64,000 bases of DNA from Neocallimastix lanati (nom. inval.) (Eukaryota; Neocallimastigomycota; Neocallimastigomycetes; Neocallimastigales; Neocallimastigaceae), in contig JACVTC010000038.1 of the NCBI GenBank assembly GCA_016946835.1, forward strand, positions 1,305,001 to 1,369,000, read 5' to 3'. Each line of letters opens with the position of its first letter. The stretch's first letter is position 1. The notes under the pieces are model-generated. The model did not search any database and had not been told where the DNA came from. It saw only the letters and a list, made by a program, of their open reading frames with translations. The translations under genes and the position numbers were made by a program. Below are positions 9,764 to 11,051 of the stretch, one piece after another.

Positions 9764-10888
9764 TTATATCAATAAATATATATACTTTTTCAATAGTTTT
9801 GTTTAAATCTGTATTTAATTCTGTTAATTCACATATTTTTATATCCACTAAATGTATCAAATAAAAAAAAATTTTAATTGAATATAAAAAAATATGAATT
9901 ATTAATTATATATAGCTATACCGATATATTTTCTTTCTAATAATATATATCATCATTAATAATAATATATATATAATTTATCTAATAATTACTATTTTTA
10001 ACATTATCATGTAATCTTTCTAGTTCTGCATCCTTTTGTTGTATTAATTCTGAACAATATTTGTTTGTACGCTCAAGTTCTTGCTCTAAATGGTATACTC
10101 TATTTGTTAAACGTTCCTATCATTTCATATACAAAATAAAATTAAAAATTTTATAAAAATAAATTAAATAAACCAAATATGTAAATATATATATATAATA
10201 AATATAAAAATAGTATAAAATATATTTTAATTAATAATATTATTAATTTAATATTTAATATCTTACATCATTAATTTCAGCAATTTCAAATTTATCTATT
10301 TTATCTTCTAATACTTCTTTATCATTATTTAATTCTTTTACAATCATTTTATATCTTTCTATTTCTCTATTTAAACCATTACTTATATATGTTTTACATT
10401 TTAAATATACATTATAATAAAAAAAAAATAATGAAGGAATAAACAAAACAAAAATAATTAAATTAATAAATAAATATATATATATTTGTTTTTTTTTTTA
10501 AAAAAAATAATAAAATAAAATAAAATAAAATAAAAATATAAAATATAAAATATAAAATAAAATAAAGAAAAGATAAAAAATTATAATAATATTAATAATA
10601 AATTATTATAATACATTTCATCTTCATATTCACTTCTTGTTAATTGTTTTAATTCCTCAATTTGTTTTCCTGCTTGATATTTTAATATGGAATATTTACT
10701 TTTTATCAAATGAGTTTTTATTATAAAAAAAAATTAAAATAAAATAAAATAATAATTAAGGATTTTAACAAATTCAAAATAAATAGTACTATTATTTTTT
10801 TTTTTGGTTTGCTTTATATGATTTTTTTTTCGTTTTTGCTATATATTGTAAATATTATTATTGTTATTATTATTATTATTATTATTAT

Positions 10889-10923
<35 letters not shown>

Positions 10924-11051
10924 TTAATTATATAAATAAAAAAGGATATTATTCATCTTCCATTTTCATAGCATTTCGTAAATTTATTTCATATTCATTT
11001 TTAATATCACTTAAAATAGGTCTATATGTTTTAAATTCATCCATAAAGAAA

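Follow-up and report, generated by a model that had tools for sequence, protein, structure and literature searches.

Does a likely flagellar gene of the gut fungus Neocallimastix lanati carry an intron that would be removed by the minor rather than the major spliceosome, and does the genome encode the parts that such removal would need? We examined this in a 64-kb window (the whole stretch of DNA analyzed, to which the positions below refer) and across the genome assembly.

The AT-AC intron and its host gene

The modelled part of a TSNAXIP1_N-domain gene lies on the minus strand at 8552..11647 and comprises 11 exons and 10 introns. Nine of the ten introns are GT-AG, and the tenth is AT-AC. The 434-residue modelled product matched TSNAXIP1_N (PF15739) at 51.4 bits (cut-off 27) and was 65% identical to a 672-aa Piromyces finnis protein (P0002), the alignment running for ~300 residues beyond the AT-AC junction. 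A flagellar role is likely, judging by family relatives: Chlamydomonas FAP145, which has a TSNAXIP1 domain, is described as present in the axoneme salt extract (PMC11151096). The alignment search for further TSNAXIP1 relatives returned P0002 and a second N. lanati protein (P0003, below) only. Upstream of the gene, at 11820-12290 on the minus strand, three consecutive short open stretches contain KSRINSA, KSRINSA and KSRVQSA, and these are perhaps alternative or duplicated first exons.

The AT-AC intron occupies 10714..10949 on the minus strand (236 nt, phase 2). Read directly on this strand, the upstream exon (10950..11052), which encodes DFFMDEFKTYRPILSDIKNEYEINLRNAMKMEDE and leads into a Y, ends with GAAGATGAATA at 10950, and the intron starts with ATATCCTTTTTT at 10949; the intron ends with AATAAAAAC at 10714 and is followed from 10713 by TCATTTG, the start of the downstream exon (10615..10713), which continues from the same Y into HLIKSKYSILKYQAGKQIEELKQL. 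The 5' splice site, ATATCCTTT (10941..10949), is identical to the U12 AT-AC consensus, while the branch motif, TCCTTAAT (10755..10762), lies within AAAATCCTTAAT in both copies of the gene, and the terminal AC (10714..10715) is the first AC or AG past the branch motif. Counting both strands, the 64-kb window contains a single TCCTTAAT and four copies of ATATCCTTT. Under a third-order Markov model, the chance of such a donor with TCCTTRAY within the last 60 nt was ~3e-6, a post hoc figure that allows for 60 offsets. The predicted duplex between AAAAUCCUUAAUUAUU and the genome's own U12 had an energy of -9.6 kcal/mol.

In a paralogue on another contig (C543), the same codon is interrupted, also in phase 2, by an intron of 204 nt, which keeps ATATCCTTT, AAAATCCTTAAT and a final AAAAAC followed by TC, the remaining intron having diverged with indels. 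The paralogous piece matched PF15739 at 35.9 bits, and the two copies are 76% identical on either side of the junction. We then scored every stop-free donor/acceptor pair over the offsets tried (n = 3,211) against the P. finnis orthologue. The AT-AC junction 10949/10714 came out on top with 293, the next reaching 284, and the alignment to P. finnis was gapless around it. Could the interval instead be a GT-AG intron of the major class whose boundaries lie elsewhere, the AT-AC fit being coincidental? The other nine introns of the gene are GT-AG and the upstream exon does hold a GT, but it is a single one; the five stop-free GT-AG junctions that use it scored at most 91 and the two stop-free GC-AG junctions at most 140, one of the five GT-AG junctions swapped 36 residues for one and lowered the PF15739 match from 51.4 to 33.0 bits, and the paralogue repeats the donor, the branch motif and the AC. 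We therefore rejected a GT-AG or GC-AG re-reading on the junction scores, and consider it exceedingly improbable.

Intron retention was the second alternative. The unspliced frame runs into a TAA at 10949..10951, which would leave a short protein ending in KMEDE, and the public protein of the paralogue (H8356DRAFT_945808; P0003, 147 aa) ends in KVEDE, exactly at the TAA of its unspliced AT-AC intron. The truncated form also still matches PF15739, at 53.0 bits compared with 51.4 for the spliced form, so the profile has no preference for splicing. However, dN and dS were 0.145 and 0.45 upstream and 0.144 and 0.49 downstream of the junction (254 codons modelled in both copies), and the same dN and dS on both sides make the downstream exons look translated; the alignment to P. 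finnis, moreover, continues far past the junction. The truncation of H8356DRAFT_945808 is probably an annotation error, possibly one recurring at other AT-AC introns, which gene finders, by our own inference, overlook. On the P. finnis alignment and the dN and dS values, we rejected retention as a very improbable reading.

We consider it very probable, from these sequence comparisons, that 10949-10714 on the minus strand is a U12-type AT-AC intron, whose predicted removal by the minor spliceosome would join GAATA to TCATT within the TSNAXIP1_N domain of a likely flagellar protein. The first-pass annotation had described an intron unable to use GT-AG, with a donor identical to the AT-AC minor consensus, a branch-like site, a terminal AC, and a reading frame and protein conservation that close across it, and on all these points our analysis agrees. 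Its placement of the junction just after NEYE was inaccurate, the actual site being the codon of the 13th residue past NEYE (the Y after MEDE).

The 5' splice site and the branch motif have been described as the defining features of U12-type introns, with a short branch-to-3' splice site gap as a characteristic one and 11-13 nt as its optimum (PMC3584512). The window intron has the RTATCCTTT donor, the TCCTTRAY branch motif and coupled AT-AC termini. Its gap, 41 nt from the last base of TCCTTAAT, and that of the paralogue, 27 nt, are well over this optimum and count against the U12-type reading.

Elsewhere in the window, Rfam at gathering cut-offs gave no matches and ARAGORN found no tRNAs across the 64 kb. 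Where the window is richest in GC, a 277-aa open frame at 16878-17711 on the minus strand contains a CPCC...H...C stretch that resembles the terminal part of a retrotransposon reverse transcriptase. Open frames at 28173-30691 on the plus strand have, by eye, two UBA-like stretches and then a long N/Q/M-rich tail, and 57254-59229 holds long TTTTA-type repeat arrays, with F/I/L/Y runs in several frames.

Candidate minor snRNA and protein genes

Since the first-pass annotation had taken the intron to imply a functional minor spliceosome, and had proposed a genome search for U11, U12, U4atac and U6atac and for minor-specific proteins, we searched the assembly for both. All four snRNAs were matched: U12 at 56.8 bits (Rfam cut-off 53), U11 at 40.5 bits, barely above its cut-off of 39, two U6atac genes at 57.4 and 56.4 bits (RF00619, cut-off 33), and U4atac at 47.2 bits, which is below its cut-off of 53, though the match is full length. 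None of the 14 control genomes gave a match above cut-off for any of these four, although at E values up to 10 the minor snRNA models matched weakly in 3 to 11 of the 14. The U11, U12 and U4atac candidates contain Sm-like AUUUUUG sites and U6atac terminates in a T run, features that we take to be signs of snRNA genes.

The U6atac stretch GAUAAGGACG is fully complementary to CGUCCUUAUC in U4atac, and one pair in this stem, C-G in the Rfam consensus, is U-A here, changed on both strands. Full complementarity with a matched change argues that the U6atac and U4atac candidates work together. The second stem, UGGCA/UGCCA, was seen by inspection only; an unconstrained U6atac-U4atac duplex calculation kept the long stem and paired CAGUUGG away from the expected second one.

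The search for minor-specific proteins covered two, U11-48K and CENATAC, and matched both. U11-48K was matched by its CHHC finger (33.9 bits), and a hand-joined set of its exons matched PDB 8r7n_F at 2.2e-9; the PF05253 search also gave a match above cut-off in one of 14 prokaryote control genomes. A gene for CENATAC, which has been reported to promote the splicing of AT-AN introns (PMC8280824), was matched as well, with two of three collinear exons above the Pfam cut-off, compared with none of the 14 controls. The CENATAC query matched PDB 8y6o_R ('Centrosomal AT-AC splicing factor') at 2.1e-5, its two matched stretches being individually weak. The candidate snRNA genes, U11-48K, CENATAC and the further minor introns described below thus lend support to the idea that a functional minor spliceosome would be present.

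Other candidate minor introns and their 3' ends

To look beyond the TSNAXIP1 pair, we ran three whole-genome patterns, each consisting of the donor RTATCCTTT, a gap and TCCTTRAY. These gave 14, 32 and 9 hits, compared with 10, 32 and 6 for the reversed-pattern control, so that the forward counts are not clearly above the control and prove nothing alone. We read 53 of the 55 hits (14/14, 30/32 and 9/9), judging the frame across the junction by eye and unblinded. By coding frame across the junction, 21 of the 53, both TSNAXIP1 copies included, were read as minor introns, 10 GT-AG and 11 AT-AC, with the intron ends forming part of how the others were read. The remaining 32 were dropped, as no frame was found across the junction by eye or by a script restricted in flanks and acceptors; some genuine introns may have been lost in this way. 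One candidate, GTATCCTTT, was rejected because it looked antisense to a coding frame (L009).

The GT-AG introns lie in two CCT chaperonin copies, a MAPK-like kinase, a methyltransferase, OST3/6, a glucan branching enzyme (matched as Alpha-amylase_C), PP2A B55, an LSM5-like gene and two prefoldin-3 copies, while the AT-AC introns lie in the two TSNAXIP1 copies, a tectonic-like, an Urb2-like and a TTL-family gene, EFL1, a Cor1-like coiled coil, a PLC-like gene and three others; the names LSM5, MAPK, PLC and glucan branching enzyme are our reading of the translations. For 17 of the 21, a Pfam or PDB match, their own or their paralogue's, spans the junction (e.g., EFL1, 2.9e-24; PP2A B55, 1.4e-53; prefoldin-3, 4.2e-20), two of these (L020 and L055) being below Pfam cut-offs; the other four (L035, L048, L056 and L062) are supported by the reading frame alone. 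Phases 0/1/2 numbered 1/13/7, with three paralogue pairs counted twice, the same order (1 > 2 > 0) as that published for minor introns (PMC10639083).

The AT-AC introns include one in the tectonic-like gene (L041) and one in the tubulin-tyrosine-ligase-family gene (L059). Both families are linked to cilia. With AT-AC introns in TSNAXIP1, tectonic-like and TTL-family genes, some likely ciliary genes would depend on minor splicing.

We next measured how far the intron end lies past the last base of TCCTTRAY. As read, this gap ranged from 10 to 187 nt, with a median of 31 (n = 21). The GT-AG introns had gaps of 23, 25, 29, 31, 48, 50, 63, 75, 84 and 187 nt, and the AT-AC introns of 10, 10, 10, 12, 13, 14, 27, 31, 41, 74 and 83 nt. 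The 3' splice site as read was the first AG past the motif in all 10 GT-AG introns and the first AC in all 11 AT-AC introns, a pattern that is partly circular, since a later in-frame AG or AC existed in several and the first was chosen; one AT-AC intron has an AG only 4 nt past the branch motif. Gapless or near-gapless family alignments backed the first AG or AC in 10 of the 21, namely CCT (2), OST3/6, PP2A B55, prefoldin-3 (2), LSM, TTL and TSNAXIP1 (2). The two prefoldin-3 copies differ in their gaps: one (L070, C13:980172-) has a T/A-rich gap of 187 nt in which the first AG is the 3' splice site, and the other (L074) a gap of 48 nt.

The long gaps in the GT-AG set might also come from major-class introns with chance motifs, as pattern counts so near the reversed control would allow. 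We hold this to be quite unlikely, however, since both CCT and both prefoldin-3 copies match the pattern at the same codon, gaps of 27-83 nt are found in five of the 11 AT-AC introns too, and the phases are distributed as in minor introns.

Long gaps bear on how such introns are surveyed. In earlier screens the region scored for branch sites ran from -40 to -5 (PMC2846911) or, in intronIC as of 2020, from -55 to -5 (PMC7367187); the motif start falls outside the former region in 9 and outside the latter in 8 of the 21 introns. With 8 of 21 motifs outside the intronIC region and one public model cut at an AT-AC intron, gut-fungal minor introns are probably under-counted in surveys.

The U6atac box and its possible consequences

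Both U6atac copies (L005, C246:1236632-1236780; L006, C588:485025-485170) carry A12G, A13C and G14C relative to the Rfam consensus, i.e., GCC for AAG at nt 12-14, so that the box expected to read AAGGA at the 5' splice site reads GCCGA. Placed in register with the donor, the GCC box pairs at +4, +5, +8 (wobble) and +9 only, and the median energy of pairing between the genome's own U6atac and the donors was -2.8 kcal/mol, compared with -7.1 for the Rfam-consensus box. For the called U11 5' end (AGAAUAGGC), the donor comparison gave -2.7 vs -6.1; this weaker match is less firm because of the low U11 score and the uncertain 5' end. The poor pairing of the genome's own U6atac and U11 with the donors counts against the U12-type reading. 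Pairing by U6atac is reportedly required in human cells, a result that goes back to Incorvaia and Padgett in 1998. Suppressor mutants place G14 of human U6atac opposite intron C6 and G15 opposite C5 (PMC4980772), the assignment of partners being our reading. A two-base CC bulge may, to judge from the sequence, let A16, G15, G12, A11 and G10 pair with +4 to +8. As the search pattern demanded CCTTT in the donor, the 21 introns are uninformative on variation at +6/+7.

The two GCC copies are recent duplicates that share several hundred bases of flank, and the introns keep a CCTTT (demanded, again, by the pattern) that a GCC box reads poorly; both facts would suit a canonical U6atac lying outside the assembly, with the GCC copies divergent or non-functional. 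We think this unlikely, while leaving it an appreciable chance. A whole-genome U6atac pattern with the box left free and three mismatches allowed returned only the two GCC copies, their long U4atac stem is preserved, and the assembly (199 Mb, 762 contigs) holds four U6 genes above cut-off, of which the three that were read all have ACAGAGA. Two look-alikes under the Rfam cut-off (L067 and L068, on C79 and C61), one of them a near-palindromic U6 relic, were rejected as U6atac, as they match U6 below its cut-off and do not match U6atac.

The U12 candidate has GUAAGGAUAA in place of the GUAAGGAAAA of the Rfam consensus. An A precedes TCCTTRAY in 13 of the 21 introns, and it fits the AAGGAU of the genome's own U12 better than it would AAGGAA; as A is common in this genome, the fit is no more than suggestive.

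How might these introns be spliced, all steps being predicted from sequence? U11/U12 would recognize the donor and the branch motif, with U12 pairing to AUCCUUAAU and leaving one A unpaired. The catalytic core would then use whichever AC comes first downstream, or whichever AG in GT-AG introns, and in an AT-rich genome that dinucleotide can be a long way from the branch. With GCC rather than AAG in its 5' splice site box, U6atac would read the donor through pairs that are fewer than elsewhere or differently arranged. On this basis we tentatively propose, at somewhat short of an even chance, a rewired gut-fungal minor spliceosome, in which U6atac would work without canonical CCUUU pairing, U11-48K/U11 together with further contacts would decide the choice of donor, and scanning from the branch would stop at whichever AG or AC comes first, as much as 187 nt away, with no short-distance rule of the kind that holds for other minor introns.

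Reading of the 5' splice site by U6atac and short branch-to-3' splice site spacing are treated as strong constraints on the minor spliceosome. If the proposal is true, a lineage that kept its donors while its U6atac box changed and its 3' splice sites drifted far downstream would offer a natural test of which contacts are really needed. What merits follow-up is the altered box of U6atac together with the relaxed 3' end.

Minor introns and, by Rfam models, minor snRNAs have been published for Neocallimastigomycetes, including N. californiae and P. finnis (Larue and Roy 2023, PMC10639083); their retention by these fungi is thus not new in itself, and the window intron is a new member of the minor introns already reported from the phylum. 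That survey covers the same fungal class and used annotated introns, and U6atac box changes and gap length are absent from the portion of its text examined. The U6atac box change and the long gap look like two new features: in the mostly open-access main texts and listings searched, we found no prior mention of either in fungi. Compared with animal, plant and Rhizophagus U12-type introns, as described in PMC3584512 and PMC10639083, the introns found here are alike in the RTATCCTTT donor, in TCCTTRAY, in AT going with AC and GT with AG, and in the scarcity of phase 0. They differ in the gap (about 11-13 nt there, 10-187 nt with a median of 31 here) and in the A before the branch motif in 13 of 21, which the U12 AAGGAU could pair. 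The U6atac candidates, for their part, share with RF00619 the UCCCCU and AAGGA core, the long U4atac stem and the terminal T run, whereas relative to human U6atac (numbering as in PMC4980772) they have GCC for AAG at nt 12-14 and have lost the G14-C6 pair.
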